Below are positions 284-28,402 of a stretch of 40,743 nt of DNA, piece by piece. This stretch comes from a virus: positions 1,492 through 42,234 of the IMG/VR virus record IMGVR_UViG_3300030098_001650. The stretch is one strand, 5' to 3'. Below the pieces are notes generated by a model, which was not told where the DNA came from, ran no database searches, and worked only from the letters and a program-made list of their open reading frames with translations. Every line of letters begins with the position of its first letter. Position 1 is the stretch's first letter. The position numbers and the translations under genes were made by a program.

Positions 284-1051
284 TTAAGATACGTTTTCTA
301 AACCTGTTCCTCGTTTTTCTTCTTTTCTAATTATCTCTGATACTCTAGCTGAATTAATATATTGTTGGTCTTTTATTTTTCTTCCTGTACGCTTATAACC
401 AATTCCAGATTTTCTTCTAACTTTTTCTTCTAACTCACCAGTTTTAGGGTTAAAAACCGCTTTTCTTTTTGCCCATTTTTTTACTTCTTTACCTTTTTTA
501 TCTAATCCAGTAAATTTGTAAGTTTCAGTAAGTGGATTTCCATATTTATTTTCCTTACCATAAAGTCTTTCTTGCTTACCAATACTGTCGATTTTTCTAG
601 ATCTTTTACCAGTAAATATATTTTTTTTAGCTTTGTTTTTATCTTTTACAACATCTTCTTTTATAAATCTCTTTCTTGTTTTAGTTTTGCCGTGCCTATC
701 GCTCCTTGCAAAACCTGTGAGTGGATTAATTTTGGGATCACTTGTGTTTTTTCTTTTCCATCTTTTCCCTGTTGTCTTTTTTTCCGTTCCATAAAAATCA
801 GAAGCAGAACCTCCGCCAGCCGCTAACTCTTCTTCAGATAAATTATATTTAGCCCTTCCTTCTGTAGGATTTTTTCCAACTAATTTTTCTCCAAGCTGAC
901 TTACGTAAGGTCTATCTTGCCATTTTATATTTTTACTTAACTTTACATCTTGCACATCCTCTGATTTTAATATTTTATCAGTTGGATCTACTTTTTTCAT
1001 TGCTGAACTAGTACCTTCACCAAAGTTTATGCCTTTCATTTTAAACGCCAT
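284..1051 (-). CDS. Basic protein with MAFKMKG N-terminal tag (255 aa)
   Basis: I do not recognise a functional family. The protein opens with MAFKMKG, shared with three other genes in this window (1958-2785, 2793-3005, 6379-6516), and then diverges. It is strongly basic, with many Lys/Arg clusters such as KKTTGKRWKRKN, RKRFIKED and RKSGIGYKRTGRKIK, and has no signal peptide, membrane segment or Cys. The composition suggests a nucleic-acid-binding or packaged internal protein. It follows the 40-aa gene at 1054-1176 by two bases and sits in the tail-end accessory block with surface and lysis genes. The upstream sequence is an A/T-rich leader without a Shine-Dalgarno site. The coding call is firm because the reading frame is long and the tag is shared; the role is unknown. 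Confidence 0.82.
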   Translation of the reverse strand: MAFKMKGINFGEGTSSAMKKVDPTDKILKSEDVQDVKLSKNIKWQDRPYVSQLGEKLVGKNPTEGRAKYNLSEEELAAGGGSASDFYGTEKKTTGKRWKRKNTSDPKINPLTGFARSDRHGKTKTRKRFIKEDVVKDKNKAKKNIFTGKRSRKIDSIGKQERLYGKENKYGNPLTETYKFTGLDKKGKEVKKWAKRKAVFNPKTGELEEKVRRKSGIGYKRTGRKIKDQQYINSARVSEIIRKEEKRGTGLENVS

Positions 1052-1053
1052 AA

Positions 1054-1176
1054 CTATTTTTTATTTTTAGTTTGTTTTTGTTTCATTGATTTGCCACTTT
1101 TAGCAGCTCTCATATAATCAATACATTCCTTTATTCCTGGTAAAGAGTTAATTCTATACATTTGTTTTTTAGCCAT
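1054..1176 (-). CDS. Small basic protein (40 aa), unknown
   Basis: A 40-codon frame begins with ATG at 1176-1174 (MAKKQMYRINSLPGIKECID) and ends with TAG at 1056-1054. It fills exactly the gap between the stalk gene (stop at 1179) and the MAFKMKG gene (start at 1051), leaving spacings of two bases on each side. The C-terminus is Lys-rich (SGKSMKQKQTKNKK). The tight fit within a gap-free operon and an A/T-rich leader like those of neighbouring genes are the main evidence that it is real. It lacks the MKG tag but resembles the tagged proteins in charge. No function can be assigned. Confidence 0.6.
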   Translation of the reverse strand: MAKKQMYRINSLPGIKECIDYMRAAKSGKSMKQKQTKNKK

Positions 1177-1178
1177 AA

Positions 1179-1955
1179 TTATTTTATTTTAAATTTTACC
1201 TTACCGTTTTGTATATATAAACCGTTAGGCTCTCTAATTGCTTGCCCATTAATATTATATATTACACTATTTTCACTAGATTTATTTAGTAATTCAGGTA
1301 TATTAGAGCTACAAGGTAATCCAGTATCACAATCAATGTATTCTGTAATAATAACATCAACATACTCTATTATAGTATCTATAGTAAAAAATTCCACATA
1401 TTCCGTTTCTATTATAGTATCAAATACCACAACCTCAACTTCTTCGATTACGTCAATGTATAGTGTATCTAATATATCTTCATATATAGTAACTGTATCA
1501 GTCACGTATACAAACTCAGGCACAAACGTTTCTATAAATACAGAATCAATTACAATTTGAGTTATATATTCTGTTTCTACAATTGTATCTAATTGTATAA
1601 TTGTTTCATAAATATAGAAAGGAACCTCTAATGTATCTATTACAGGAACATCTATATATACAGTGTCACAAGAAGGTGGTGGTGGTGGTGCACAGTCACC
1701 CGGTACAGTTGGGACAGCATTGTCTTCATCAGAACCATCAACACAATCTTCCCACCCATCATTTAAATAAAATAAATTTTGATAACCATTAGGTACACAG
1801 CCGTTAGGGGAATACTGTGTCCAGTTTGCTGGATCATCTCCACAATAAAACCCGTTTTGTTCTGCACATGCGATGCATAATTCTTGGAAGTCGTATTCTT
1901 GCGAATAAGTAAACGAGCTTATAAACGCAAATAAAATTATAATATATTTTTTCAT
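1179..1955 (-). CDS. Secreted repeat-stalk protein with LDL-A-like motif and T9SS-type C-terminal sorting tail
   Basis: This 258-aa protein looks exported. Residues 1-19 form a signal peptide (MKKYIIILFAFISSFTYSQ). Residues about 27-88 are Cys-rich and include GWEDCVDGSDE (67-77), which matches the acidic calcium-binding core of LDL-receptor class A modules. A Pro run (90-94) leads to a beta-prone stalk at 97-208 with regularly placed D(T/S)(I/V/L) motifs and almost no Lys/Arg. The last 35 residues (SSENSVIYNINGQAI through GKVKFKIK) resemble the type A sorting domain used by the Bacteroidota type IX secretion system. The inferred role is a protein moved by host machinery to the host cell surface, perhaps for superinfection exclusion or adhesion. 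It lies in the late operon between MKG-tagged genes. Signal peptide and tail are read directly; the LDL-A and T9SS calls are motif-level and need profile confirmation. Confidence 0.8.
   Translation of the reverse strand: MKKYIIILFAFISSFTYSQEYDFQELCIACAEQNGFYCGDDPANWTQYSPNGCVPNGYQNLFYLNDGWEDCVDGSDEDNAVPTVPGDCAPPPPPSCDTVYIDVPVIDTLEVPFYIYETIIQLDTIVETEYITQIVIDSVFIETFVPEFVYVTDTVTIYEDILDTLYIDVIEEVEVVVFDTIIETEYVEFFTIDTIIEYVDVIITEYIDCDTGLPCSSNIPELLNKSSENSVIYNINGQAIREPNGLYIQNGKVKFKIK
1332..1667 (-). repeat. Tandem 168-bp (56-residue) duplication in the stalk coding region
   Basis: D(T/S) motifs in the stalk protein start at residues 97, 107, 123, 137, 153, 163, 179 and 193. The spacings are 10, 16, 14, 16 and then 10, 16, 14, so motifs recur with an exact 56-residue period. 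The two units correspond to bases 1500-1667 and 1332-1499. The best-preserved pair is DTIVETEY (residue 123) against DTIIETEY (residue 179). The copies have otherwise diverged, so this is an old internal duplication and not a recent array. Confidence 0.65.
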
Positions 1956-1957
1956 AG

Positions 1958-2785
1958 CTATTTGTTTTTTAATTCTTTCTTTTTTTGTTTTAATCCAGCT
2001 ATAGCAGATTTTAAATTATCTTGAGCTCTTTTGTTACCTATTTTTTTTATTCTTTCTATCTTAAGATCTCTAATACTTGATTTAACTTCTTTTAATCTTC
2101 TTTTATTTTGTGTTTTTTCTTCATTAGCTTCAAACCCACCTGTATCATAGCCTCTTTTCCCATTACCATTACCATTTTTCTTTAATGGAGAATTAAATTT
2201 ACTCATATCAATATGGCTTTTATCTTTAGTAAATAATTCACCATCACCTCTTTCAATAACTTTATTTTTCATCTTCAACATTAAATTTTCTAAATTTTTA
2301 ATTTTAGTTGAATCATTATCCATTTTAGCCTCGTGGTATTCGTTATCATAAATACCTAGTATTTCACCTTCTAACCTACCACTATCAGCTGTATTAATAG
2401 TTAATGTAGAATCACTGGGTAGTTTAGTATCATCTTTTCTTTTAAAAGGTGGTGGGTTGGGTGTCTTTTTTTGCTTTGGAATTTGCTTAGATATATTTTG
2501 CATTGGCTCAGTAGCCCAATCCATAGCATCTTTATAGCCAGTTGCTCCAGTGAATTGTTCTATTTCTTCTTCTGAATAACCTTGATTACGTAATAAGTCA
2601 ACAGCTTTATTCATTTTTTTCTCTGATCTAGGAAATTTTCTATCACTTTTTTTAGTACCATACGTAGGAGAGTCTACAGTAGTATGCCCAACGTGCTTTC
2701 TAGTTAACCTTTTAGCTTTATTAATTTTTCTTATATTTAGACCTGTTCCTTTTCCGGGGTCAAAGCCTTTCATTTTATATGCCAT
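1958..2785 (-). CDS. Basic protein with MAYKMKG N-terminal tag (275 aa)
   Basis: The protein begins MAYKMKGFDPGKGTG, a variant of the tag seen at 284-1051, 2793-3005 and 6379-6516, with Tyr replacing Phe at position 3. The first 65 residues are rich in Lys/Arg. A short segment, NQGYSEEEIEQFTGATGYKDAMDW (about residues 68-91), resembles a small helical domain. The middle is low complexity with acidic patches, and the C-terminal third (about 210-275) is a charged predicted helix rich in Lys, Arg and Glu. No signal peptide or membrane segment is present. It ends two bases before the stalk gene start and begins eight bases after the next tagged gene. An internal virion or DNA-associated role is inferred from charge and context only. 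Confidence 0.82.
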   Translation of the reverse strand: MAYKMKGFDPGKGTGLNIRKINKAKRLTRKHVGHTTVDSPTYGTKKSDRKFPRSEKKMNKAVDLLRNQGYSEEEIEQFTGATGYKDAMDWATEPMQNISKQIPKQKKTPNPPPFKRKDDTKLPSDSTLTINTADSGRLEGEILGIYDNEYHEAKMDNDSTKIKNLENLMLKMKNKVIERGDGELFTKDKSHIDMSKFNSPLKKNGNGNGKRGYDTGGFEANEEKTQNKRRLKEVKSSIRDLKIERIKKIGNKRAQDNLKSAIAGLKQKKKELKNK

Positions 2786-2792
2786 AATTTTT

Positions 2793-3005
2793 TTATTTTC
2801 TAATTTTCCATTTTATATTTCCAGTAAGTCTATACATAAAGTTATTAAAATAATCTGGCTTAACATTGCCAGCTGCTAAAGCCTCTTTGTATTTTTGTTT
2901 TGCTGTTTTTTCGTCTACTTTACCAACGCCTCCAGTATCATGCTTTGATCCTTCTACTGGAGTTTCTTTTGTAAAAGCAGAATACCCTTTCATTTTAAAT
3001 GCCAT
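2793..3005 (-). CDS. Small basic protein with MAFKMKG N-terminal tag (70 aa)
   Basis: This is the short intact member of the tag family. MAFKMKGYSAFTKETPVEG is followed by a Gly/Lys-rich stretch (SKHDTGGVGKVDEK) and a basic helix ending in ITGNIKWKIRK-like residues (LTGNIKWKIRK). It sits three bases downstream of the outer-membrane protein gene and eight bases upstream of the 275-aa tagged gene. Its ATG is preceded by TTTAATATTTTAAAAT, an A/T-rich leader. Its small size suggests the tag plus a short basic tail may be the minimal functional unit. No enzymatic motif is visible. Confidence 0.78.
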   Translation of the reverse strand: MAFKMKGYSAFTKETPVEGSKHDTGGVGKVDEKTAKQKYKEALAAGNVKPDYFNNFMYRLTGNIKWKIRK

Positions 3006-3008
3006 ATT

Positions 3009-4052
3009 TTAAAATATTAAATAGTTAAATCCAAACTTTACTTCAAAGATTTCTTTGCCCCAGTATCTCATATGGACACCTTCTACAAATAAACCTAAAT
3101 GCTTAGTTAGTTTTGTTCCTAAAACTAAACCAGCATCCCACTCTATATTATCACCATCGTATTCATATGAATAATCATCTAAACCATAATGATATGGTAG
3201 ACAGTTGAACCAAGCGTGAGCCCAAGCTGTTGGTGTATATTTATAATAAGCTAAACCTACTACAGCGCTTATTTCTTTTTGCATTCCTAATTTCTCTAAT
3301 TCTCTTTCATTAAATCTAGCAACCGCATCTCCAAAATACCAATTATAAAATTCGTCATTAGACGTTGCTATTAAAATAGAATCACCATCAGAAACATCGT
3401 ACCAATTTTGATCTACATAAAAACCTTGAACCCATTGCTCTGAAGCATATCCAAAGTCCTCTGCTAAATCTTGAAATGTATTTTCTCCTGGTACCCAAAA
3501 ATCTTCAATAGGATTTATACCATATACTGGATGTACTCTAAATACGGTTCCAACAGTAAAATCCCAATTACCTTTATTTAATCTAAATCTATAATCAAGA
3601 GAAGAATATTTTAAATTTACCCTTTGATTGTCCGCGTATTGAACTTTTGCGACAAATTTGTTACCAAGGTATCTAAGCCAAAAATTTTGTTCAGTGAACT
3701 TATCACCACGATTACGTATAAAAGAATAATTAAAAAGATACTCCCAACCATTAGCGTTCCCAATAGTAACGTTATCTGCAATATTGTCTTCAGTCCCGTA
3801 ATAAAATGTTTTAACCTTGTACTCATAATCCATTCGTGCTATTTTCCGTAGGCCTATTGTTAAATTGTAATCATAAGGCGAAACCCACGTAACGTCCTCA
3901 TAACCTTTATCAACTGCTATATAATCCTCTGTTTCTATCATCGATGTGTTCATTGTCATAGATGTATAGAAGGTTGAAAACTTAAAGAAGTCTTTAAACT
4001 GCGCTGTACATACTGTACTAACTAACAGAAATAATAATAATATATTTTTCAT
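3009..4052 (-). CDS. Phage-encoded outer-membrane beta-barrel protein
   Basis: The 347-aa product begins with a clear signal peptide (MKNILLLFLLVSTVCTAQ, residues 1-18) of the flavobacterial type. The mature part alternates polar and hydrophobic residues with many Tyr, Trp and Phe. Strand-like segments include YNLTIGLRKIARMDYEYK, FWLRYLGNKFVAKVQYA and WDAGLVLGTKLTKHLGLFVEG. The protein ends in the strand FEVKFGFNYLIF with a terminal Phe, as in the C-terminal beta signal recognised by the BAM complex. It should therefore insert in the host outer membrane and is not expected to be a virion component. Plausible roles are superinfection exclusion, permeability change or lysis assistance. It overlaps none of its neighbours but lies one base from the lysin candidate (stop at 4054) and three from the tagged gene, in one operon. 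The exact barrel family was not recognised. Confidence 0.8.
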   Translation of the reverse strand: MKNILLLFLLVSTVCTAQFKDFFKFSTFYTSMTMNTSMIETEDYIAVDKGYEDVTWVSPYDYNLTIGLRKIARMDYEYKVKTFYYGTEDNIADNVTIGNANGWEYLFNYSFIRNRGDKFTEQNFWLRYLGNKFVAKVQYADNQRVNLKYSSLDYRFRLNKGNWDFTVGTVFRVHPVYGINPIEDFWVPGENTFQDLAEDFGYASEQWVQGFYVDQNWYDVSDGDSILIATSNDEFYNWYFGDAVARFNERELEKLGMQKEISAVVGLAYYKYTPTAWAHAWFNCLPYHYGLDDYSYEYDGDNIEWDAGLVLGTKLTKHLGLFVEGVHMRYWGKEIFEVKFGFNYLIF

Positions 4053-4053
4053 T

Positions 4054-4662
4054 TTATAAATCTAAATCTTTACTATCTAATAATGTATATGTGAAACTAT
4101 TACCCCACTTATCTCTAGCAACTCTACATATATCCATAAATTCATGCCAATCATCATTAGCTGCTATTACTTGACATCCAGCTGACCACTTGTCTACTTT
4201 AGTAGATTTCTTACCTCCCCATTTTGTAGCTCGATGTATGTTAATACCAAACAAACCCGTCTGAGTATTATCATCGCTTAAATCAAACTTACCATCTTTA
4301 TTAGCATCTCTGTATACTGTAACAGGACCATTCTGCCCTAACGCTTCATATCTACCTTGGTGTAATCTAATTTTATGAGAACCGGGATACTGCCCTTCTT
4401 TCAAGACGGCCACACCTTCCTTTCTCATTATATTCTCCACCCAATATCTACCGGGGTCGGTCGTACAATCATAGCAATAAAATTCCCATTGACCATCACA
4501 CATAAATGATAATGTAATCTTGTCATCGAATTTATTTGTTACCTCTACTCCAGTGTCAGAATTCCTAACTCCTACTACGTTAATATTATAGTCACCTGTT
4601 TCGAACCATTTGTACCCTTTGGCTTTTACACCTTGCTCTATTATTTCTTTTGTTAATTTCAT
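4054..4662 (-). CDS. L,D-transpeptidase (YkuD)-like protein, candidate endolysin
   Basis: The 202-aa product contains GINIHRA (His143) followed 17 residues later by SAGCQV (Ser160, Cys163). This matches the His...S-x-GC catalytic signature of YkuD-fold L,D-transpeptidases, which use Cys to act on peptidoglycan stem peptides. Upstream, residues 119-130 (DANKDGKFDLSD) match an EF-hand or dockerin-type calcium loop. The segment KFDDKITLSFMCDGQWEF and the G(x)Y-G-SHKIRLHQGRYEAL region read as the beta core. There is no signal peptide, so a holin would be needed for access to the wall. It starts at a TAATG overlap with the gene at 4662-4964 and precedes the outer-membrane protein gene. A cell-wall-active role is well supported; whether it cleaves or cross-links is not decided by sequence. 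Confidence 0.7.
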   Translation of the reverse strand: MKLTKEIIEQGVKAKGYKWFETGDYNINVVGVRNSDTGVEVTNKFDDKITLSFMCDGQWEFYCYDCTTDPGRYWVENIMRKEGVAVLKEGQYPGSHKIRLHQGRYEALGQNGPVTVYRDANKDGKFDLSDDNTQTGLFGINIHRATKWGGKKSTKVDKWSAGCQVIAANDDWHEFMDICRVARDKWGNSFTYTLLDSKDLDL

Positions 4663-4964
4663 TATTTTAATATTACTGTTAAATTAGGATTCCCTGACCC
4701 GGAATCATGAGATATTCTTAAATTATATTTTGATGAATTAAAAGCTAAATTATCTTCTATTACTAACGTTGCGCCTGATGGTATTTTAGTATCTCTAATT
4801 ATATAATATACGTTAGTACCATCATAATAGTCTACACACACGCCAGTCGCAGTACTGCTATTATTATTAGATATTAGCATTTTCATAAAACGACCATGTT
4901 GCGCCCCACCTTTTTCTACTAAGACTGTTGTTGTTCCAGATGTTATATTTTTATATACTGCCAT
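4662..4964 (-). CDS. Small beta-rich protein (100 aa), likely virion accessory
   Basis: The sequence MAVYKNITSGTTTVLVEKGG continues as alternating beta strands with Gly/Ser/Asn turns (ISNNNSSTATGVCVDYY, IPSGATLVIEDNLAFNSS, YNLRISHDSGSGNPNLTVIL). It has no signal peptide or catalytic motif and resembles a small jelly-roll or Ig-like domain. It begins at a TAATG overlap with the tail-fibre gene stop and ends at a TAATG overlap with the lysin candidate start, suggesting translational coupling on both sides. Position directly after the fibre suggests a fibre accessory, capsid or tail decoration protein. The family was not recognised with confidence. Confidence 0.72.
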   Translation of the reverse strand: MAVYKNITSGTTTVLVEKGGAQHGRFMKMLISNNNSSTATGVCVDYYDGTNVYYIIRDTKIPSGATLVIEDNLAFNSSKYNLRISHDSGSGNPNLTVILK

Positions 4965-6382
4965 TATGTTGTTTTTGCTATTGTTATTTTTCCCCCATAT
5001 ATTAGATCTGATGTATCACCTGGGTTAAATACTATAGTAACAAATTTTTCACCATCTCCCACGATCTCTTTTCCAGTAATAACGCTTTGATCAGTATTAA
5101 ACGCAAATGCTAATGTAGCCGCAATAGGAGTTGTCCCATCAATCACACATTGATATGCTGTAAATGTAGCGGCGGTACTACCTCCATCAGTACCATTTAT
5201 TCTAAATGTACTAGCGGTATATCCTTTAGGTATTATTTTTTGACAAAAATAAAAAGTGCCAGCATTGCTTGGTGCCATTGTTTTTCCATTTGATGGAGTA
5301 GCTATTTCACCCACTTGTCTATAACTACTAGCTGTTATAAAATCAACAGGCATTAATGGAATAAATGTTTCAGACACAGGGCCTATATTGCCCCCTCTAA
5401 ATATTCCATTTGTATTTACATAATTCAACGCACCCGCAACTTCTAATTCTATATTACCTGCGGAATCTAGCGTAACTGTTGACCCCGCTAGTTCAGCTGT
5501 ACCTACTGCTGTTATTGAGGTATTTTCTGATGAGTCAATATCTAATCTACCTGCGTCTATATCTACAATATTATCTGTATCTGCATTTGCATCTAAATGA
5601 AATACTACGTCAGATAAATCTGGTGCTGCTATAGTATATTTACCAACAGGCGTAAACGTCATCGCTCCAGCTGATGTCATATTATCTCCATCAATATCAA
5701 GATCACCAGCTATTGTAGTTGTAGATGCGGGTCCATAACCTAATTGCACGTCAACTACATCACTAGCAAGGCTTTCAGCCAAAATCACATTACGCATAGC
5801 ATTTCCAGAAGCATCCCGCGCAGTTATTTGAAATGTTCCTTTTTCAGATCCAGCAGCTGTTTCTGCAATTTGGCTACTAAACTCAACAACTTTAACAGAA
5901 GTACCACTATCATTATCACCGTAAAATCTAATTGCGCCAGCAGTATCTCCATCAACACCAGTACCTCTTTCGTTAATAAAATCTAGAACGCCTCCAGCAG
6001 TGTTATTACCAGTATTTTTAATTATAACTTGGCTATTAGTAGCATTTGTAAATGTAGAAGTTAAAGCGTTAATTGAAAGGGCTGTTCCGCTATACGTGAA
6101 ATTAGCCTCAGCTGTAATAGGGCTAGCACCGGTTCCGGTAAGAACTGAATTGTCAGTAAGACTACTAGCTCCACTACCACCATTTGCTACAGGTAATACA
6201 CCAGTTACTTCTGAGGTTAAATCAACAGCACCACCAACCTCTGACGCTTTTACTATTTTATTATTTGAGTCTAGCCCAAGATTGCCCCCACTAGCGATCG
6301 TTCCAGATTCTATTGCTTCTAAATAAACATCAGAACGAAATCTAGATATAAAATCCCATATGTGCTGACCTATCCATTTCAT
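4964..6382 (-). CDS. Tail fibre / receptor-binding protein candidate
   Basis: The 472-aa product opens with MKWIGQHIWDFISRFRSDVY, a probable virion-attachment helix. It continues as a Gly/Ser/Thr/Asn/Ala-rich sequence typical of trimeric phage fibres (LPVANGGSGASSLTDNSVLT, then many short strand-turn units), with runs such as IDGDNMTSAG and DIDAGRLDIDSSENTSITA. From about residue 330 the composition changes to a compact beta domain (FIPLMPVDFITASSYRQVGE to the end), probably the receptor-binding tip. No S74 chaperone is found at its own C-terminus. Its ATG overlaps the stop of the 45-aa tagged gene in an ATGA junction. The inferred role is host recognition. Fibres evolve fast, so lack of a recognised family is expected. 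Confidence 0.75.
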   Translation of the reverse strand: MKWIGQHIWDFISRFRSDVYLEAIESGTIASGGNLGLDSNNKIVKASEVGGAVDLTSEVTGVLPVANGGSGASSLTDNSVLTGTGASPITAEANFTYSGTALSINALTSTFTNATNSQVIIKNTGNNTAGGVLDFINERGTGVDGDTAGAIRFYGDNDSGTSVKVVEFSSQIAETAAGSEKGTFQITARDASGNAMRNVILAESLASDVVDVQLGYGPASTTTIAGDLDIDGDNMTSAGAMTFTPVGKYTIAAPDLSDVVFHLDANADTDNIVDIDAGRLDIDSSENTSITAVGTAELAGSTVTLDSAGNIELEVAGALNYVNTNGIFRGGNIGPVSETFIPLMPVDFITASSYRQVGEIATPSNGKTMAPSNAGTFYFCQKIIPKGYTASTFRINGTDGGSTAATFTAYQCVIDGTTPIAATLAFAFNTDQSVITGKEIVGDGEKFVTIVFNPGDTSDLIYGGKITIAKTT

Positions 6383-6516
6383 TTATATTTTTTTGTTTTC
6401 TTATAAGGATTGTGATCGTATCCTTTTTTTTCTAAAGCTAAGTGCTCTTCGTGAGTCTTTGCTTTTTTTGTTTTATACATATTATGAGGTTTAAACCCCT
6501 TCATTTTAAACGCCAT
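6379..6516 (-). CDS. 45-aa protein with MAFKMKG N-terminal tag
   Basis: A 45-codon frame starts with ATG at 6516-6514 and reads MAFKMKGFKPHNMYKTKKAK, then THEEHLALEKKGYDHNPYKK and TKKYK, ending in TGA at 6381-6379. The stop overlaps the tail-fibre start (ATGA). It is the shortest member of the MKG-tag family and lies about 3.4 kb from the nearest other member, so the tag is not explained by a local tandem duplication alone. The codons for Ala2, Lys6 and Gly7 differ synonymously from other copies. It is very basic with no membrane segment. Existence is well supported by the shared tag; function is unknown. Confidence 0.75.
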   Translation of the reverse strand: MAFKMKGFKPHNMYKTKKAKTHEEHLALEKKGYDHNPYKKTKKYK

Positions 6517-7084: not shown

Positions 7085-10000
7085 TTATTGGTGAGCATAA
7101 CATTTTTTATTTGTATTCTCTGTTTTGTTCTTACATCTCTGTCCGTTAGATTTAGTTGCTGTACACCTATATTCTTTCTTACCGTCACCATCAGTATCGC
7201 TTCCATCTTTGAATTCCGCGTGATGAACACACTTCCAAGATTTTTTATTTGTCTCAGTTGTATTACCACACCTTCTACCATTTGATCTTATACCAGAACA
7301 TCTAACGGTTTTAATTCCTTTTTCTTTTTTCTCTTGTTCTTCTTTTTTCTTTTCCTCTTCTTTCTTTTTCTTTTCTTCTTCTTTTTTAATTTTCTTTTCT
7401 TCTTCTTTTTTCTCTTTCTTTTCTATTTTAATTTCTTCTTTTGCTTTTTCTATTTCTTCATCTTTTACACCAACATCCCATCTATTCCAACCTAGTACTA
7501 GCGCAACCCTTTGCCACATTAAATGATTTCCAGTTATTGCTTCTTCTAAGTTATTAGCTTTGTTAACAACCCTAGCCAATGGTATATTAGTTACAGCCTC
7601 TATAATACTAGACCACTTTCGTAAGTTTGGATTTTCAATACTCCAACCTACTTTTTCTCCAACTCCTTCATTATATAATTCTGTATCAAAAGCACTCATT
7701 ATTTTTCTCATCTTAGAACCTATTGGCGGAGATAAATTTACTAATTCTTGTGCTATATCCCATTTGTCTCGTTTCCACCTTGGTAAATTTTTTTGTTTAT
7801 GCCACTGTATAATAGTATTTTTAAGAGTAGATAATAAAGCCCCGTATAAACCAGTACCACGTAAAAAAGAATCTAAAGCCTGATTCATTGTTCTTACTGT
7901 TCTATTTTCAATTTCTTCTTCGTCATCTCCCCACATTATAGCCGCTAACGCCGTTTGTAAAGAAGCAAATACTATATTTTGAACCATTCCATAATATAAA
8001 ATTTTAGATACATTAGTTTTCCAATCGCCTCTACCATATCTTAAATCAGACAAAGCCTTTTTCGTTAATCTACCCATTTGCATTGTAACGTTCTGAAACG
8101 CTAAAACCATTCTACCAAGAATGCTAGCTTGTTGTTGTGATACTAAATCTTCTCTTGATGATTGTTGCGTTTCCTCTGCTATCTCTTGAAAATCTAACAT
8201 TGCTTGATCATGAGCTTCTTTATTAGACATTCCTTCTTTTTTATATTTATTTAATCTGTTTCTATAAAAACTAGCTCCACCAAAAGCAATAGCAAAACTA
8301 TCAGCAATTTGTGTTGGTGTAAAACCTTTTTGTAATAAATAACTAATAACAGCCGCTGGCGTACGTTTTCCTTCTGCAAAAGCTTTAGCTAATTCTGAAG
8401 CAGAGACATCAGTTTGTAGTCCCCCTCTTCTTTGTTTTAATTGATCAGAATTAAACAACATTACAAAATCTTTCCAAAACTGTACTTGATTGGCAAATGC
8501 CGCTGAAGCTTTAAATATATTATTGTCACTCCAATTAATAAAGTTAACAGTAGATATAGTTTGAAGTAATGCTGATCTCATATTAAAAAACATAACCGCA
8601 CCAACAGAGCCGTTTATCCACTCAGTAAACATATTAACCGTACTATCTGGACTAGTAAGTCTATTGCCTCCGTTTTCCATACGGTACAATATATTTTTTA
8701 AAGCTTCTACAAACCAAGAGCCATAAGCTGCTTCTATTTTATTTAAATTATCTTTATTAAATATAATATTTTTTAAATCAATCCACTCTTGCAAAAATTG
8801 TTTTCTACCAATTTTATTTACAAGGTTATTCATGTCGCCTGGAATAGAGCTAACAGACCAATTTTCTGTAGGAGGAGGATAGCCTTCTTTACTACGAGTT
8901 ATAGTAGAAAGACCTTCTGCAAAAGCTTTAACGTTAGCATTATTCTCAACGTATCTTATTAATTCTCGTTTTTGCGATTCAGATATTCCAGGTATATCGT
9001 GACCATGTTTATTCCATAGATAAACCCTAACCGCCGTGTCTACTGAAAAAACACTACCTGGTATTGTTTTATTTAAAGATTTTGCAACTTTAGGAAACTG
9101 CTTTTTTAAAGCTTTGTACTCGTTAACCATGTTTTGTTTATACGCATTCCACGATCGGATACCTCTAGCAAAAGGATCAAATAGTTTTTCTTTAAACCAT
9201 TTTAAATCCATATCACCTTGTTTTCCTTTGCCAACAAAGTAATACATTAATCCTTTAAAATCTTCTGCTGATGGTGGTATATAAAGACTTTTTAAGAATC
9301 TAATTATACTAGGTTGTGATCCTCTTTTTCTAGCCTCAGCCTCTGATATTATTGTTTTAGAGTCAATTCCTTTTTTACGCTCAATCATATCATTGAACTC
9401 TGTATTAATTTGATTTTCAATACTAGGTTCAATAATCTTACTTTCCATGCTATCACTATCATCAAGCTTTCTATTTGTTTTTTCCATTTTAGCTTGAACA
9501 ACATCCGATTTAATATCTAACTGATCTAGCACTTCTTTTACCGCAGCTACATTTTGTGTTGCGTCGTCAGCGAAATACATATCGTTATATCCTTCTGCAA
9601 ATTTATCTAATACCCATTTTGCTTTCGCTTCACCAGTACTGTTAGCTAAGCCGGTAATGTTTTTTAATGGTATATCTAATCCTTGAGATTTTAAGAATTG
9701 TTGTATAGCTTTAGCAGCCCTAGGTGTTCTAGCGGTTAAGACAAATATATCCTTAGTTCCGAATCTTTTAGCTCTTTCTAATGCTTTACCAAGTAATGGC
9801 CCAGGTCTACCTTCTACAACTTGGTCAAATTCTGAAAAATCAAATTTACCGCCACGTTGTAATATATCATCTCCTAGTTCAGCAAACTCAGTCGCATCTA
9901 ATCTTAATCTTTCGTGTCCAGAAACAAACTTATCCATTTTACTAGCTAAGTCTTTAGAAACCGGATCATCAATCTCCATGTTGTCAGTGTTTATTTCCAT

Positions 10001-11725
10001 AAAGTTATCACCAAACATTTCCTTAAAAGTATCTTTATTTCCTTGAACAGCCTCATGATTTCTTCTAACTATAACATCTAACAATGATCTTTCTTTTCTA
10101 GCTCTATTTCTATCCAATGCTGTATCTAAAGACGTCTCAACAAATAACATACTAACATCGTATCCTTTATCTTGAAATTCTTTTACTAATTTCTGCATTT
10201 GTTTTACTGAACCCCCTGTGCCATCTACAACAACCCCGTTTCCTTCTCCTTGATACTTCATCATTTTTTTTCTAGCTATCTTTCTTGACTGAGCGCCTAG
10301 TCTACCAAGTTCACTTCTTTGCTCTGGAGTCAAGTCTCGCATGTCTTCTGGTAATCCGGAGTTTTTCTTTAGCCATTCTAGCGATATATCAGAGTTAACT
10401 ATTTTAAATCCTTGTTTTTCTAAGTTTAATTTTTTAACTATGTTAGATTTACCACTGCCAGCGCCTCCAGCTAAAAATATAACTTTTCTTTTTGGTTTAG
10501 GTTTTCCATCAATATTTGGAACAGTAACTCTAACGCCTGACTTTGTAAAAGCTAACGTATCATCAAAATCAAAAATAGAAGCACCTTTTACATCTGGGGG
10601 CATACTATATGAAGATGACATACCACTTTCGTCAGCTAATTGTTTAGTTCTTTTTTCATTTTCAACGGGCATATTATCTTTAAGAAACTTATTTGCTTTT
10701 GTAGAAAATCCTTCTATATCATTTAAATGTTGAGCAGCTGTTTTACCATTAATATTAAAAACGTGCTTTTGCCTTCCTTTTAAAAATTTAATTAATCTAA
10801 GTTCTCCTTCCAAGCTAACTTTGTTGTCTACTAATTTTCCATCTATTTTTATTTTAGAATCCATTATATCACAAATAAATGCTGGAGCATAAAGCGTCTT
10901 ATGATTACTTGTTATATTATCTACATCAGTTTTTCCACTAAATACGTAATCAGCCCTTCTAGCATGAGTATCCGCTGATGGCTTTAAGTGTTCGTTTTTA
11001 GGTCTTAATAAACCTATTGTTTTATCTAACAAAGCGTTTCCTTTTAAGTTAGGAAACTTTTTCTTAGCTATTTTAAAAGCCTCATTAAAATCTTCACACT
11101 CTCTCCATGAATCATAGTATGCTTCTAGTTGAGTATCGTATTTTTCATTAGGTACTTTACCGTCTTTAGTCTTTTTAGTTTTTTGAGGCTTATTCATTTT
11201 TCCAACTTGTGGGCCTTTTACTAAATAAACATAATCTAAAGTGCTAAGAGCCCTAGTTCCTTCAACTATATTAGTTTGAAATTTACCTATAAGATAAATA
11301 TCTAAAGCAGATAATGTTTTGTTGTTATACGCTTGTTTTAGCTTTATGCTAAAATACTTCATTGCGGCTTTATTACTTTCGTTTATTTCTTCAATTTGTG
11401 CTCTAGCGTTTTGTAGCATTTCTTGCTTTTTAACTAAATTCGTTTCTTGAAGTATTGGTAATAATATTTCTCTAATTTTTCCTTTAAACTCCATGTGTTT
11501 AAAGTTTTTCATAGCATCAATCTCTGCCTTGGTCATTAGGCCATTGTCAATTAAATATTTTTCCTCCTTAGCAATTGCAGCATCGTCCATTCTTGAAGAA
11601 TCCTCTAAAAATAAAAAGTCTTTACCATTAGGTGTTCTTATACTACGAGCTGGTTTTCCATCTACCATAACAACCTTACCGTCAATCTTATAAGTTCCAG
11701 AATCTTTAAAACCCAAAAAGTACAT
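7085..11725 (-). CDS. Giant internal virion protein with P-loop kinase nested in a HAD phosphatase and twin Cys/His tail (1546 aa)
   Basis: Residues 386-390 (DFDDT) form HAD motif I. Next comes a P-loop kinase module with GGAGSGKS (420-427, Lys426), a later VVVDGTGG segment and an RNRARKER stretch, resembling zeta-toxin or polynucleotide-kinase-like folds. HAD motifs resume at VLTART (Thr664), GEAKAKWVLDKF and FADDATQN (Asp720/721). The kinase is thus inserted between HAD motifs I and II. The C-terminal half has hydrophobic helices (for example about 1235-1260), as in ejection proteins. A Lys/Glu coil (about 1425-1470) precedes two Cys/His modules: C-x9-C-x12-C-x2-H and C-x9-C-x10-C-x2-H. The ATG shown is the first in frame, but the frame is open a further 60 or so codons upstream and probably continues from the 2290-aa ORF through the slip site at 11887-11893. 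Inferred role: a DNA-ejection-associated protein carrying end-processing or RNA/DNA repair activities. Confidence 0.8.
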   Translation of the reverse strand: MYFLGFKDSGTYKIDGKVVMVDGKPARSIRTPNGKDFLFLEDSSRMDDAAIAKEEKYLIDNGLMTKAEIDAMKNFKHMEFKGKIREILLPILQETNLVKKQEMLQNARAQIEEINESNKAAMKYFSIKLKQAYNNKTLSALDIYLIGKFQTNIVEGTRALSTLDYVYLVKGPQVGKMNKPQKTKKTKDGKVPNEKYDTQLEAYYDSWRECEDFNEAFKIAKKKFPNLKGNALLDKTIGLLRPKNEHLKPSADTHARRADYVFSGKTDVDNITSNHKTLYAPAFICDIMDSKIKIDGKLVDNKVSLEGELRLIKFLKGRQKHVFNINGKTAAQHLNDIEGFSTKANKFLKDNMPVENEKRTKQLADESGMSSSYSMPPDVKGASIFDFDDTLAFTKSGVRVTVPNIDGKPKPKRKVIFLAGGAGSGKSNIVKKLNLEKQGFKIVNSDISLEWLKKNSGLPEDMRDLTPEQRSELGRLGAQSRKIARKKMMKYQGEGNGVVVDGTGGSVKQMQKLVKEFQDKGYDVSMLFVETSLDTALDRNRARKERSLLDVIVRRNHEAVQGNKDTFKEMFGDNFMEINTDNMEIDDPVSKDLASKMDKFVSGHERLRLDATEFAELGDDILQRGGKFDFSEFDQVVEGRPGPLLGKALERAKRFGTKDIFVLTARTPRAAKAIQQFLKSQGLDIPLKNITGLANSTGEAKAKWVLDKFAEGYNDMYFADDATQNVAAVKEVLDQLDIKSDVVQAKMEKTNRKLDDSDSMESKIIEPSIENQINTEFNDMIERKKGIDSKTIISEAEARKRGSQPSIIRFLKSLYIPPSAEDFKGLMYYFVGKGKQGDMDLKWFKEKLFDPFARGIRSWNAYKQNMVNEYKALKKQFPKVAKSLNKTIPGSVFSVDTAVRVYLWNKHGHDIPGISESQKRELIRYVENNANVKAFAEGLSTITRSKEGYPPPTENWSVSSIPGDMNNLVNKIGRKQFLQEWIDLKNIIFNKDNLNKIEAAYGSWFVEALKNILYRMENGGNRLTSPDSTVNMFTEWINGSVGAVMFFNMRSALLQTISTVNFINWSDNNIFKASAAFANQVQFWKDFVMLFNSDQLKQRRGGLQTDVSASELAKAFAEGKRTPAAVISYLLQKGFTPTQIADSFAIAFGGASFYRNRLNKYKKEGMSNKEAHDQAMLDFQEIAEETQQSSREDLVSQQQASILGRMVLAFQNVTMQMGRLTKKALSDLRYGRGDWKTNVSKILYYGMVQNIVFASLQTALAAIMWGDDEEEIENRTVRTMNQALDSFLRGTGLYGALLSTLKNTIIQWHKQKNLPRWKRDKWDIAQELVNLSPPIGSKMRKIMSAFDTELYNEGVGEKVGWSIENPNLRKWSSIIEAVTNIPLARVVNKANNLEEAITGNHLMWQRVALVLGWNRWDVGVKDEEIEKAKEEIKIEKKEKKEEEKKIKKEEEKKKKEEEKKKEEQEKKEKGIKTVRCSGIRSNGRRCGNTTETNKKSWKCVHHAEFKDGSDTDGDGKKEYRCTATKSNGQRCKNKTENTNKKCYAHQ
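7314..7450 (-). repeat. Near-uninterrupted polypurine tract (coding strand) encoding a Lys/Glu coil
   Basis: On the plus strand this stretch is almost entirely T and C with few interruptions, and on the coding (minus) strand almost entirely A and G. It encodes the KK/EE-rich linker between the membrane-like region and the Cys/His tail of the 1546-aa protein. Such codon-level slippage-prone tracts vary in length, and a homopurine tract can adopt unusual DNA structure; neither is demonstrated here. Confidence 0.6.
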
Positions 11726-22585: not shown

Positions 22586-25500
22586 TTATAAAGGGTTATT
22601 ATCTGAGTCTACTCCCTGAACGGTTACTTCTTCTTCTGTTTGTGTATCTGTTGGATCTACTAAAGGAAATCCTATTCCTTGAACAGTAAACTCACTTGTA
22701 TCTAAATTATCTTTTGTTGTGGTGTCTCCGCTTATTTTATTAAACCATTTATTTTCTTTTTCTATAAACTCACCAACCGCTCCGGTTTGTAAATTTGTTT
22801 CAATTGAATCAACGTACCAACCAGTTTTAGTTGGAAATATGTTATAGTATTCTCCATCATTAACTGTTATTGGAGTTCCAGTTACGTCTTCATCAGTAAT
22901 TTCAGTAAATTGTTGTATTTTAGCTTGGCTTCCCTCGTAGTTTATTGCAGTAAAAGATTTAACAGTACCCGGTGATTCATTAAATAATACCTCTACTTCT
23001 GAATCATAATGTTGCTCATAAAAATAATTTCTTGAAACAATATCACTATAATGTACGTAGACATTATTAAGGTTAACTGAAAAATATTTATCATTTACAC
23101 TAACAGCTGTTAAAGGCACAAATGATTTAAAACTAACCCAACCTTTAGAACCCTCACTAAAAGAAGCTGTAATTGAATCAAATTGCCATTTAGAAGATCC
23201 ATTTAAAGTAAGATTATATTCATCACTAACGCCATCAAAAGAACCAATAAGATTATCACATTTTTTTAAAGTTTCTCTAAAATAAGATTTCATACCAACA
23301 TCTGATATAGGTGTTATTCCATTTCCAGATAACCTTAAAACGGCTCCTCGTTGCATATCAGTAAAATACATGCGATAACTATCAAAGGCTAACGATTCTG
23401 GATTTTTAGATATTCCATAGTCACCAGCAAAAGGCATTGCTGTACCAAGTACCGCATCTGTTGCTGTTAACTGTGGTTTGTTATCAGCATTAAATACCGC
23501 GTCTTTTCCACTAGACATTACTTTTAAAACCTTGTCTTCTGCAAAAACAACAACATCGTTATCTCTAGTTTTCATAGCTTGAATTGAACCGTGAATTGTA
23601 TTTAAATCTTTTGTTATTTTTTCTGCTTGTATAAATTGATTTAAATTATTAACGCCTGATATTGAGTTATATAAACCTGAATATATCATACCGCTAGTTT
23701 TATTTTCTTCTCCATACTCTAAAAATGTAGACGATGCTTTCACGCCGTTATCTATTTGTGGAGCATTAAAATCATCTCTAATCCTATCTGACTCTACGCC
23801 GTTACCAAATGAATAGCAATTAAACCAACCTAATTCTACTGGATATTGCCAAACTTCTTTTTCTATTTCAAAATAGCCTGTTACTATTTTTATAGTTATA
23901 TTACTAGTAAATGGCATTGATGTTATTGGTTTTCTACTTAATATAATAGAGTTAGCGTTTGGAGAACCAGTTGTGACCACAAACGTTCCTTTTTCTAAAC
24001 CATCACCCGTTACTTCTGCCCCAATAATACTTTGCCCATTTATATTATTAGTTATTCCTGGAGCTTCTATATAATTTCCACCTTGAAAAAAATTTACCGA
24101 AGCGTTAGAAAACGTAGCTCTATCAGATGGCACGGTAATCTCTGTGCTTAAAAGTTTAACGTGATCTAAAATTTTTGATTTAGTAACTAACCCACTTAAG
24201 TTTTTAAATGAAACAATATCATCTATAGCAGCGCAAACACCATCAGATGAATTAGCCGTTATTATTGTTTTTAAATTAGTAGCTATACCACCCAAGTTTC
24301 TTTTTATATGTACCGTATTTGATCCGATAGTTCGATAAACCCAAGGTAATCCTCCTTCACTTGTTTCTAAATTTACTTTTTCAAATTGTCCATTTATTAA
24401 TTTTCTTTGATCAATTGTAAATGAACTAGCGTTTTCTTTAATTTTATTTGGCCCAGTAAATGTTTGTATATATCTTTGACTTAGTCTTATTGGAATAGCG
24501 CCACTAGCTTCATAATATATATCTAAGCCAACATCTTCTTTTGGTTCCGTTTCAAAACAAGCAGAATTAGAAGAAATAGAGTCATCTGATAAGTTTTGAA
24601 CTTGCGTTCTTTGAACAAACTCTATAGTTAAACTTCCAAGTCCATTATGCTTAATAGTTCCTCTAGGGTCCCAAACACTAGCATCTAATCCAGCACCAGT
24701 GCTAACGCCATTATTATCAAGTCTTGAAAATCTAACTATTATTGTTTCTCTATCAACGTAATCAGGGTTTGCGCCGTCTTGATTAATATCATAATTTTTA
24801 CTTGGTATATTTATAGGGCCAGCAGGCACCACTCCGTTCCCATTAGATATAGTTTGACTTGATTGAAATACTCTATACACTTCTTGATTTGGATCATCTC
24901 TAAATCTAAATAACGTTCCTTGTGTTTGCATCTTAGTTTTAAAGTAAGAGTTTGTTCCATTCCACATTAAGTTGGCTCCACCACCAATCATAGAAAATGT
25001 TAATTGGCCCATATTATTATCTGAATTCCAAACTGTTTCTTCAAAAGTACCATTAGAAAGCCCTTGTGGTTGCCAGTTTGTCTCTCCTTCAAAAGTATTT
25101 ATTGGTTCATATCCAGAATTAAAATCAGTCAACGCATCTACGCCGTTTACTTGTAAATTAAAACCACTAAAAGCTGGGGCTTGATCAATAAATATATCTG
25201 CTGTCCTGTTAGAATTTTCATACCAGTTAATCCAAAAATCTTCTGTTGTAGAAGAGTCGTTAGGACCAAAGTTAGTTATTGTAGAACTAGTAAATATATT
25301 TGGGTCACCAGTGTATGGTGGCGTTGAAGTGATATAATCGTCCCAAGTAGAAGATTCATAATCCATTTCTGAAGCATACTCAGATACTTGTGATGGATTT
25401 ACACTTTCGTTTGCAATATAAGCTATTTGATACGAATTTAAAACTTCATATTCTCCTAAGGAATTACCTAAAATTCTTTCTTGTAAAGCGCTGTCATTAG

Positions 25501-28402
25501 CTACTTTAACAAAAAATTTACCATCAAATTGTGATTTATTTTCTACAACAGCGTCTATAAGTTGTATATAATATTTAAAATCACTATTGGTATCAGCTGT
25601 CCCTTGCGCTAAAACACTAGCATCAGGTAACTGCGTTAATATTTTTTGATATAAATTAACTTCTCCTAAGTTAAAAGTATTTCTAATAACAATTGCCTTT
25701 TCTTCTTCTTCATTTACTATTCTTGATATTGTTTTAATAGGACTTTTTGCTTCGTAAGTATTGCCGCTCGTTGTAAACTTAGCAATTATTCTAATCTTAG
25801 GCGTTCCTTTAAATTCTAAATTTTCAAGGTTAAGATCGGCACTTTTAATTTTTTTATTATCTATTAACGCACTAGGCACGGCATCTGTTATAACGTTACT
25901 TGGATCACCAATAACCCAAGTATCTCCATATATATTTGGAGAATCTATTTGTACTAAATCAAATTCTCTATTATCAGTTTTTATATAATCAGGCGCTTCA
26001 TTTTCTATAGCTAATATTTTATACTTAGCTTCTTCTTCAACAGCGCCCTGTCCACCGTGTTCATTTTTTAATATTAAATATGTTTCTTCATCAACCTTAT
26101 TTCTATCAGCTGAATTAAATGATAACCAAACATTGTTATCTCCGCCGTCATACCATCTGTCTAATACAAGATTATAGTATTCATTAGAAGTTTCTTTTAC
26201 GTAATACTTAATGTAATCCATCCATCTCATATCCGTTGGATTTGAACCATCCCAACTTTGTTTTAATTTAAATTTATTAGAAAATTTAGATAAAGATTTA
26301 GAAACTTTAGACGCTCCTGGTAAAACTTGACCATCTGCAGCTTGGTAACCATTTGATATAACTGGCGTTTCTCTACCATATCTATCCCCAATAACTATAC
26401 CAAATTGATAAGTTCTAAGAGACTTAACAGATTTTTTTGGATTTGGAAAAGATACTACATCAGAAACAAGAGTTTGTTTTAATCCTATATTTGAATCTAT
26501 ATCATAACCTTGTTTATAATTACCATATAAAAGTCTATTACCAGTTATTTCTTGAGCCACGGCATTTCTAGGTACATTATCCCACGATCTAAGTAATTGA
26601 TTTGCTTCAACAACTTTATATATCATTTCAGATGTTATAGCAAGAAGCCCAGTGTTTGATTCGATAGAGTCAGAAAAATTTTTCCACTCAGTGTCTATTT
26701 CTCTAACAATAGTTTTAACAATATATACATTAGAATTATCTGTTGTTTTCCAAAGAATATCAATTGACTTTACATCGTGTGGCCTAATATAATTATTTGG
26801 TATAAAGTCTTTAACAATTAATTGCCTAACAGTATTAGCCATTCCTTCATTAAAACCTTTGTTAGGTGTATATAAAAAATCACCAGGTAAAAATACTAAT
26901 TCAGACCAAGGAGAAAAAGTTGAATATTCATTATCTTCATATTGATATCTATATGCAAATCTTCCAAATTTAGCCTCAAATAAAGGTTCTCTTTTTTCTA
27001 ATTCTACCGACCATGAAGAAGGATTTTGAGTTGATGATAAATCACTATCAATAAGTAATAATTCTATTGTAACTGTACCTGGATTATTTTCATCTATATC
27101 TATAATTTTTGCTCTAATGGTAATAGGGTCAACAGTATTCTCAGCTGTAAATGTATATATGTCATCTAATCTAAAATCAACACTAGTAGGAAAATCAACA
27201 CTTCTAAGATCACCAGTTTTAGGAGGATTATCCAACGTACCATCACCATCATTGTCAATTACAAACTCATACCCAACTAATGGAAAATTAGCAGTGCTTT
27301 CTCTATCAACCTCTTTCATTGTGATATTAGGAGGAGAAGTTGGGGCTATTTTTATTGTTGTAATATTTTCTTTTTTTATATCTGAAGAAGTGCTAAATAA
27401 TGATAAATTTTCTAAATCAGATACAGGAACTAAACCACCATTTAAAGGGTGCTTTACCATAAGTTGAGTGTGTTCAAAATAAGATGATTGATTTGTACCC
27501 TCTAAACATCTTTGTATATTTATTTTTTTAGGTTCATGTTTTCCGTCCGTCCACATTAAAAGATCGTCTAGGATGTGTATAGCTGATATTGTATTTATTC
27601 CTTCCCAAAATCCCTCTTTATGATAATCAAATTCTAAAACTCTTTCTGGATATACAAATTTAAAAGCAACAGCTGTATTTAAGTCTGCAGTTTGTTGTTT
27701 TGATAAAGTTAAAACATTTGAACTTATTTGTAGTATTTCAACAAATTCATTATCACCATCTAAAAATAAATTAGCGCCAGCGCTAGTCTGTGCGTATATA
27801 CGCATACCTATTCTATACTTAGTTCCATCTAGAACTTGTATTTGATCATAACCATTAGTTGGAGTAGATTCAAAAGATCCATTTGATTTATATACAGAGC
27901 CGTTGTTAATATTACCATCTGTATCGCATGATACAACACCGGTTTTTATATCAGTAACAGCAAATCTATCTACAATAATAGGTTGAGTAAGATATCCATC
28001 ACCAAAAAGCTTAACTCGCATTATACTATCTGCCCATATAACTTGTTGCGTTATATCAGTAGGGTCTATGTTTACAACTCCTTCAGGCCAAAGATTAACA
28101 GCACCAACTAGTGGCACTGGAGCGGCTGTAAAAAAATAAGCAGAGTTAGTAGCATCATCTGACACGCTACCTATTATTTCTGATTTCTTTCCATCGTAAC
28201 CTATGATTTGTTGAGATGAACTTATCTTATAATTACCTTTTAAATTTTGCACAGTTCCAGCATCACCCAAATGATTAGAATCACCATCTGTGGTTTTAAC
28301 TTGAATATTTAAAGCGTTTCTATATTCGCCGTTAGGAACAAGTCTTTCGTCAAGATCTTTGTTCATTTTACCAGCTGAAAAATTGTGTTTAATTTCTGGC
28401 AT
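22586..28402 (-). CDS. Tail nozzle protein (gp12-like / muzzle-like), 1938 aa
   Basis: The N-terminus has GKMNKDLDERLVPNGEYRNA (residues 11-30), a motif I associate with the tail-tube or nozzle protein of marine podoviruses. The rest is a very long beta-rich sequence with Trp/Tyr-rich propeller-like segments such as NDKYFSVNLNNVYVHYSD, DAVLGTAMPFAGDYGISKNP and RSWDNVPRNAVAQEITGNRL. At 1938 aa it is more than twice the roughly 800 aa of T7 gp12, so extra domains, probably the middle part at about 900-1400, have been inserted. It follows the two adaptor genes, exactly as gp12 follows gp11. Expected role: the distal short-tail tube that contacts the host surface and gates DNA release. Identity is supported by order, motif and composition. 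Confidence 0.78.
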   Translation of the reverse strand: MPEIKHNFSAGKMNKDLDERLVPNGEYRNALNIQVKTTDGDSNHLGDAGTVQNLKGNYKISSSQQIIGYDGKKSEIIGSVSDDATNSAYFFTAAPVPLVGAVNLWPEGVVNIDPTDITQQVIWADSIMRVKLFGDGYLTQPIIVDRFAVTDIKTGVVSCDTDGNINNGSVYKSNGSFESTPTNGYDQIQVLDGTKYRIGMRIYAQTSAGANLFLDGDNEFVEILQISSNVLTLSKQQTADLNTAVAFKFVYPERVLEFDYHKEGFWEGINTISAIHILDDLLMWTDGKHEPKKINIQRCLEGTNQSSYFEHTQLMVKHPLNGGLVPVSDLENLSLFSTSSDIKKENITTIKIAPTSPPNITMKEVDRESTANFPLVGYEFVIDNDGDGTLDNPPKTGDLRSVDFPTSVDFRLDDIYTFTAENTVDPITIRAKIIDIDENNPGTVTIELLLIDSDLSSTQNPSSWSVELEKREPLFEAKFGRFAYRYQYEDNEYSTFSPWSELVFLPGDFLYTPNKGFNEGMANTVRQLIVKDFIPNNYIRPHDVKSIDILWKTTDNSNVYIVKTIVREIDTEWKNFSDSIESNTGLLAITSEMIYKVVEANQLLRSWDNVPRNAVAQEITGNRLLYGNYKQGYDIDSNIGLKQTLVSDVVSFPNPKKSVKSLRTYQFGIVIGDRYGRETPVISNGYQAADGQVLPGASKVSKSLSKFSNKFKLKQSWDGSNPTDMRWMDYIKYYVKETSNEYYNLVLDRWYDGGDNNVWLSFNSADRNKVDEETYLILKNEHGGQGAVEEEAKYKILAIENEAPDYIKTDNREFDLVQIDSPNIYGDTWVIGDPSNVITDAVPSALIDNKKIKSADLNLENLEFKGTPKIRIIAKFTTSGNTYEAKSPIKTISRIVNEEEEKAIVIRNTFNLGEVNLYQKILTQLPDASVLAQGTADTNSDFKYYIQLIDAVVENKSQFDGKFFVKVANDSALQERILGNSLGEYEVLNSYQIAYIANESVNPSQVSEYASEMDYESSTWDDYITSTPPYTGDPNIFTSSTITNFGPNDSSTTEDFWINWYENSNRTADIFIDQAPAFSGFNLQVNGVDALTDFNSGYEPINTFEGETNWQPQGLSNGTFEETVWNSDNNMGQLTFSMIGGGANLMWNGTNSYFKTKMQTQGTLFRFRDDPNQEVYRVFQSSQTISNGNGVVPAGPINIPSKNYDINQDGANPDYVDRETIIVRFSRLDNNGVSTGAGLDASVWDPRGTIKHNGLGSLTIEFVQRTQVQNLSDDSISSNSACFETEPKEDVGLDIYYEASGAIPIRLSQRYIQTFTGPNKIKENASSFTIDQRKLINGQFEKVNLETSEGGLPWVYRTIGSNTVHIKRNLGGIATNLKTIITANSSDGVCAAIDDIVSFKNLSGLVTKSKILDHVKLLSTEITVPSDRATFSNASVNFFQGGNYIEAPGITNNINGQSIIGAEVTGDGLEKGTFVVTTGSPNANSIILSRKPITSMPFTSNITIKIVTGYFEIEKEVWQYPVELGWFNCYSFGNGVESDRIRDDFNAPQIDNGVKASSTFLEYGEENKTSGMIYSGLYNSISGVNNLNQFIQAEKITKDLNTIHGSIQAMKTRDNDVVVFAEDKVLKVMSSGKDAVFNADNKPQLTATDAVLGTAMPFAGDYGISKNPESLAFDSYRMYFTDMQRGAVLRLSGNGITPISDVGMKSYFRETLKKCDNLIGSFDGVSDEYNLTLNGSSKWQFDSITASFSEGSKGWVSFKSFVPLTAVSVNDKYFSVNLNNVYVHYSDIVSRNYFYEQHYDSEVEVLFNESPGTVKSFTAINYEGSQAKIQQFTEITDEDVTGTPITVNDGEYYNIFPTKTGWYVDSIETNLQTGAVGEFIEKENKWFNKISGDTTTKDNLDTSEFTVQGIGFPLVDPTDTQTEEEVTVQGVDSDNNPL

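Follow-up and report, generated by a model that had tools for sequence, protein, structure and literature searches.

Encapsulin cargo-loading peptides are short linear sequences, usually C-terminal, that bring unrelated proteins into a shell of the HK97 fold. T-even phages possess internal proteins among which only the capsid targeting sequence (CTS) is conserved; the CTS loads these proteins into the prohead core, and the internal proteins of T4 are Lys-rich (PMC3012670). The cargo protein inside a crassvirus virion amounts to several MDa, as described for PhicrAss001, of which the cargo proteins are 60-277 kDa, and the portion of that report considered here describes no shared short N-terminal tag on them (PMC10172136). 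Here we analyze the N-terminal peptide MA[FY]KMKG (henceforth the tag), with which four genes begin in a stretch of 40,743 nucleotides (the window) comprising bases 1492-42234 of the 42,234-base virus record IMGVR_UViG_3300030098_001650. The tag is N-terminal, conserved at the peptide level, specific to one lineage, borne by unrelated proteins, modular, exchangeable, and encoded on the late strand in the regions flanking the block of virion genes. We consider it an even prospect that MAFKMKG, with the core F/Y-K-M/L-K/R-G/N, serves as a portable N-terminal short linear motif, namely an address label that would load its carriers into the virion as the CTS of T4 does.

The tagged genes of the window are as follows (coordinates are those of the window unless a record or locus is named).
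284..1051, minus strand: tagged gene ATGGCGTTTAAAATGAAAGGC, 255 amino acids, net charge +34, tag codons at 1031-1051.
1958..2785, minus strand: tagged gene ATGGCATATAAAATGAAAGGC, 275 amino acids, net charge +25, tag codons at 2765-2785.
2793..3005, minus strand: tagged gene ATGGCATTTAAAATGAAAGGG, 70 amino acids, net charge +8, tag codons at 2985-3005.
6379..6516, minus strand: tagged gene ATGGCGTTTAAAATGAAGGGG, 45 amino acids, net charge +10, tag codons at 6496-6516.

An earlier note on the window had described four genes that start with the tag and then diverge, and all four open reading frames (ORFs) do exist on the minus strand; when the four proteins were compared without the tag, no significant similarity was found among them, with the best pairwise E value of 0.1. 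The synonymous differences that it reported between the copies at the Ala2, Lys6, and Gly7 codons were likewise seen. The strong positive charge that it regarded as common to the carriers applies to the four window proteins but does not extend to the whole class, as a net charge of 0 or below is seen in 10 of 82 tagged families, with members of a zinc-peptidase-like family among them; the term 'basic proteins' does not cover the tagged class in full. A diverged fifth copy, MAYKMQG.. (MAYKMQGWSAGKG, 176 amino acids), lies outside the window at record positions 471-1001. No homologue of the 255-amino-acid protein (284..1051) was found among the ORFs of the loci compared. The 275-amino-acid protein (1958..2785) is a mosaic of the tag, a module common to the tagged proteins of loci L041 and L047 (approximately 62-64% identity), and a module common to the tagged protein of L052 (56% identity), the modules spanning residues 19-91 (approximately 2513-2731) and 137-179 (approximately 2249-2377). 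The 45-amino-acid protein (6379..6516) comprises the tag and a module at residues 9-40 (KPHNMYK..EEHLALEKKGYDH.PY) that recurs in longer proteins elsewhere. PHROGs, Pfam, and NCBIfam gave no function for the tagged proteins of the window.

Searching viral metagenome sequences for the pattern, a check suggested in the earlier note, demonstrated that the tag is commoner than expected by chance. The MA[FY]KMKG DNA pattern was found in at least 119 IMG/VR stretches as compared with 8 in an equal-length codon-permuted control, and across 43 records the pattern yielded 58 matches versus 0 for the reversed pattern; chance as the source of the tag is ruled out by these two contrasts. In 144 of 147 viral matches, an in-frame stop occurs no more than 30 codons upstream (median, 5 codons), and its proximity indicates that these matches are real gene starts. 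Bacterial and archaeal genomes (257 Gb) gave 61 matches, which is about chance level; most of these are located inside long reading frames or belong to very short ones, and in only one case (L169, a 4.7-kb contig of a Maricaulis metagenome-assembled genome) is the encoded protein a member of a tagged viral family. Neither MAFKMKG nor FKMKG was found in any paper in the open-access full-text literature. The gene calls used throughout are simple ATG-based longest ORFs, and a few starts may be wrong. A family of 62-amino-acid proteins encoded on the opposite, early strand (MGYKMKTC.ISGK..; G026, G055, G048, and G033) matches the relaxed pattern by sequence only, and we set it aside as a probable coincidence.

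Selection acts on the tag peptide, not on its DNA. In 23 homologous tagged pairs, the first seven residues are 91% identical versus 22% for residues 8-25; for the rest of the matched sequence, the mean identity across all homologous matches is 59%. Alignment A4 displays a constant tag, a linker of widely varying length, and then a conserved small domain. Where the tag varies, it does so conservatively: Met5 gives way to Leu, Ile, or Gln, Lys is replaced by Arg, and Phe by Tyr. Among the proteins of 29 records, the core [FY]K[ML][KR][GNA] occurs 88 times in the first 25 residues versus three times in the remaining 464,440 residues. The core usually begins at residue 3 and is also found at residues 4, 5, 6, 7, 9, 10, and 13, a few of which may reflect wrong start calls, and the shifted cores follow unrelated starts (e.g., MSGPFKMKG, MKKSGFKMKG, and MARKSKAKFKMKG).

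The 152 tagged proteins, mostly 50-430 amino acids long, fall into 82 homology clusters (E < 1e-4). This number, together with the contrast in identity and the lack of similarity behind the tag in the window, rules out full-length homology as the cause of the shared start, an explanation against which the earlier note had itself cautioned. In profile searches with the 82 cluster representatives, the only matches were DUF6321 (two members), a weak one to Eco57I, and short ones to PHROGs. A tagged protein of L053 contains a module that is also present at the N-terminus of the virion structural family phrog_36695. A second N-terminal head, MA[FY]xQxNNPF..(T/S)xCGRRR (the Q-head), was detected on several unrelated late-flank proteins (G035, G026, G054, G055, G060, G075, G018, and G059). 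Across the 29 records, the DUF6321 module stands behind the FK(M/L)K head, the Q-head, and other starts three, eight, and five times, respectively, and a WPSAYASGW module two, six, and three times, respectively; pelagiphages and cyanophages possess DUF6321 modules with neither head. As the same C-terminal modules sit behind either head, behind other starts, or headless elsewhere, the head is an add-on of the tagged lineage. Past the tag, a second motif, S[PA]hK[KQ], was observed 21 times versus 0.6 expected.

Two further observations concern the arrangement of these motifs. The second motif (e.g., SPAKQ, SALKQ, or SPMKK) lies 5-30 residues past the tag, occurs also in untagged late-flank proteins, and is nearly absent elsewhere. 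A tagged protein of G054 (53350-53877, minus strand; MPFKMKGFPK..) contains the tag once more in its interior, as SGFKMKGFSPF at residue 74, and resembles a fusion of two tagged proteins.

Among the 141 genes with the core tag or the Q-head, 137 are on the strand of the terminase gene and the other four represent a single early protein family. Tagged genes account for 17-18% of the late-strand genes (38-450 amino acids) both upstream of the terminase gene and past the giant protein, versus 0.6% in the virion block and 0.6% on the opposite strand (Fisher p of 5e-11 and 4e-33, respectively, in which the genes of related genomes are not independent), 'late' being read from strand and position. 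The tagged proteins have a median Lys content of 16.7% versus 9.5% in their untagged neighbours. The corresponding landmarks of the window are listed below.
36104..38338, minus strand: terminase large subunit (phrog_6681, E 5e-171), the marker of the tag-carrying lineage.
33705..36107, minus strand: portal protein (phrog_6547), with which the untagged virion block begins.
30991..32475, minus strand: main head structural protein, probably the major capsid protein (phrog_13704), untagged.
22586..28402, minus strand: 1938-amino-acid tail protein with a crassvirus-muzzle-like C-terminus (PF25729, E 3.9e-5, 24.4 bits, below the cut-off of 27), untagged.
7085..11725, minus strand: 1546-amino-acid protein with a zeta-toxin/AAA_33-like kinase domain at residues approximately 410-561, the end of the untagged block, beyond which the tagged genes of the window lie.
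4054-4662, minus strand: 202-amino-acid protein related to phrog_3000 and to the endolysin family phrog_33083 (E 5e-15), between tagged genes.
The 1546-amino-acid protein carries two Cys/His-rich C-terminal repeats (RCSGIRSNGRRC.. and RCTATKSNGQRC..). At 1179-1955 on the minus strand, a protein with a signal-peptide-like start ends in YNINGQAIREPNGLYIQNGKVKFKIK, a C-terminus that we take to resemble the sorting tails of Bacteroidota type IX secretion; an NCBIfam search gave no match for this protein.

One of the tagged families is zincin-like. A single HExxH protein was found in each of 23 of the 29 records, 2.4-7.6 kb upstream of the terminase gene in 21 of them, and its start is nearly always M-[AGSP]-[FY]-K-[LMI] (e.g., L028:1000-1305 and L200:6456-6848); no member was found among the called genes of the record containing the window. 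Across 37 sequences of the family, no variation is seen at His53, Glu54, His57, and Glu95, which fits the pattern of HExxH with a downstream Glu, and Glu95 may bind zinc. The profile of the family matched the minigluzincin selecase with an E value of 8e-4. The predicted structure shows modest similarity to IrrE, ArdC, and minigluzincins (the best being IrrE, with a Z score of 6.5 and 3.0 Å over 77 residues), and a Foldseek search with this model returned no match at E <= 0.001. The predicted local distance difference test score (pLDDT) is below 50 for tag residues 1-12 and mostly 70-86 for the domain; in a second tagged protein, of which the model is weaker, the tag is likewise outside the domain. 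Being disordered and beyond the domain in both models, the tag lies outside the predicted folds.

The phrog_6681 terminase was detected in 49 of 50 tag-bearing records, which were picked for the tag and for length and of which most are fragments, and in none of 14 control genomes; the former figure indicates that the tag marks one podophage lineage. The terminase of the window forms a common family with those of cultured Bacteroidota podophages (Elemovirus, Callevirus, and Pachyviridae) at 30-62% identity. In a phage collection, its relatives are Flavobacterium elemo phages (46%), the metagenomic MW202828 (62%), and Maribacter, Cellulophaga, and Tenacibaculum phages; the tag was present in none of eight such relatives. 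The tagged proteins showed no convincing homologues in the compared regions of the eight relatives, with two exceptions: a Q-head protein, one module of which occurs in MW202828 and elemo, and a terminase that had entered the set as an accidental catch of the relaxed pattern. Searching isolates by tblastn with six representative tagged families recovered only DUF6321-type modules, mostly from pelagiphages and cyanophages, and the bare tag peptide yielded no match, which is weak evidence given so short a query. Out of 23 contigs longer than 20 kb selected by terminase similarity alone, seven match the relaxed tag pattern, and four of six pattern-negative contigs read whole carry MxFK or a shifted form. 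The lineage is mostly uncultured and probably marine, a setting judged from its relatives and the shared modules, and the same relatives point to Bacteroidota as its hosts.

The idea of an address label, put forward in the earlier note, survives the tests of homology and chance, while its addressee (head, protease, or host factor) is something that we infer; we favor loading into the virion because of the genomic position of the tagged genes, their late strand, the Lys-richness of their products, and the detection by mass spectrometry (MS) of Lys-rich late proteins in a cultured relative. In that relative, phi40:1, MS/MS data underlie the structural annotation of the Lys-rich late-flank proteins gp069 and gp080, and the phi38:1 counterparts of these two have a net charge of +24. 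Under virion loading, the lineage would fuse the tag to small accessory proteins whose genes accompany the late genes and whose repertoire changes fast, and the label would dock its carriers on some part of the head or tail during assembly. The docked carriers would thereby enter the virion and be delivered along with the DNA, possibly with cleavage of the tag. Docking may proceed via the alternating hydrophobic and basic, strand-like FKMK, as the alternation in Phe-Lys-Met-Lys-Gly suggests a short strand that would add to a sheet of the dock. In a tentative extension of this scheme, two interchangeable labels (FKMKG and xQxNNPF) would be shuffled onto small effector modules, the zincin-like protein included, and any new protein would gain access to the virion, or to two different sites in it, by taking on a head. 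Several points weigh against virion loading. Some tagged proteins are acidic, and gp069 and gp080 of phi40:1 have neither the tag nor homology to the tagged proteins. The tagged proteins are known here from their genes, and both their place in the virion and their dock are postulated. Finally, the tag does not occur in the cultured relatives examined and is patchy within the lineage (7/23 by pattern), which argues that assembly can do without it.

The main rival of virion loading is docking to a cellular or another phage factor. In the infected cell, late proteins would, once made, be directed by the label to a single factor of host or phage origin (nucleoid, envelope, ribosome, protease, or chaperone); there they would serve lysis timing, exclusion of other phages, or assembly support and would stay out of the virion. 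A short linear motif could bind any partner, the carriers are diverse with a peptidase-like family among them, and both zones of tagged genes adjoin lysis-like genes, such as that at 4054-4662. Nevertheless, genes for host takeover are usually early, yet just 0.6% of the opposite-strand genes are tagged, and both the restriction to the late flanks and the Lys-richness fit packaging better. We thus see docking of this kind as a possible but doubtful account. It is unlikely, in our view, that the label is the recognition sequence of a maturation protease or processing enzyme, perhaps the tagged HExxH protein, with removal of the tag activating or freeing the proteins during head maturation. The S[PA]hK[KQ] motif could be a cleavage site, or a second docking site, and the 23 records encode a zincin-like protein with the same tag; however, the zincin is absent or was not found in six of the 29 records, including that of the window, and processing of this sort is compatible with virion loading rather than an alternative to it.

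Two explanations that assign no function to the peptide are both very improbable. Were the 5' sequence a conserved module of translation start or DNA recombination, the peptide would be a by-product. The start region is A-rich, the heads and modules are shuffled, and Gly7 GGG is somewhat over-represented (0.18 vs 0.05-0.07). On the other hand, in the 82 cluster representatives, codon use in the tag is close to the background for Phe3 (TTT, 0.86 vs 0.85 in the genomes), Lys6 (AAA, 0.80 vs 0.79), and Ala2 (GCA, 0.73 vs 0.70 for Ala2 of untagged genes), Met5 is replaceable, and the motif stands behind other starts at residues 4-13, the last of which excludes a start-codon module. This explanation is largely refuted already: the statement in the earlier note that the peptide rather than the DNA is conserved is upheld by the background codon use, the movable core, and the contrast in identity, and the module with two in-frame ATGs that it offered as an alternative fails on the same codon use, on the frequent Leu, Ile, or Gln at Met5, and on the shifted motif. 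The shared start could instead be a functionless relic of common descent. The shuffling of heads and modules among paralogues does make a common origin of the head itself likely, but a functionless tag should have diverged as far as the 18 residues behind it (22% vs 91%), a contrast by which the relic is largely refuted already, and the same C-terminal modules exist without the tag in other phages.

If the label does load virions, the mostly unannotated cargo that this widespread uncultured lineage carries in its virions could be listed from sequence, podophages related to crassviruses would possess a T4-like targeting signal, and the short peptide might load foreign proteins into such particles. 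The present analysis further brings to light small cationic modules that the lineage has in common with pelagiphages and cyanophages and that are recombined behind interchangeable heads.

The tag resembles the CTS of T4 in that a single short conserved peptide heads proteins with no other relationship to one another (82 clusters; 91% vs 22% identity), and in its Lys-rich, changing late cargo (median of 16.7% vs 9.5%, with not all members basic). The two differ in the phage group and the core proteins, in the far greater number of carriers here (82 clusters) and the second exchangeable head, and in that, for the tag, loading into the head and removal by a prohead protease are presumed; the likeness is one of logic, and we claim no homology. 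As for the crassviruses, the phage of the window has the muzzle-like tail protein (below the cut-off) and a P22-like portal match, which make cargo storage in head and tail plausible, whereas the tagged proteins are mostly 50-430 amino acids long as opposed to the 60-277 kDa given for the cargo in the portion of the report considered. The small basic DUF6321 (PF19846) proteins of pelagiphages and cyanophages share with several tagged proteins the C-terminal module ..GSKAAKRRKSFCARSKxW..GKAARRRWKC, but those proteins (e.g., HTVC028P gp22 and S-TIP28_63) are without the FKMKG head. The encapsulin peptides differ from the tag in their usual C-terminal position and in sequence, and are alike in being short loading peptides on unrelated proteins.

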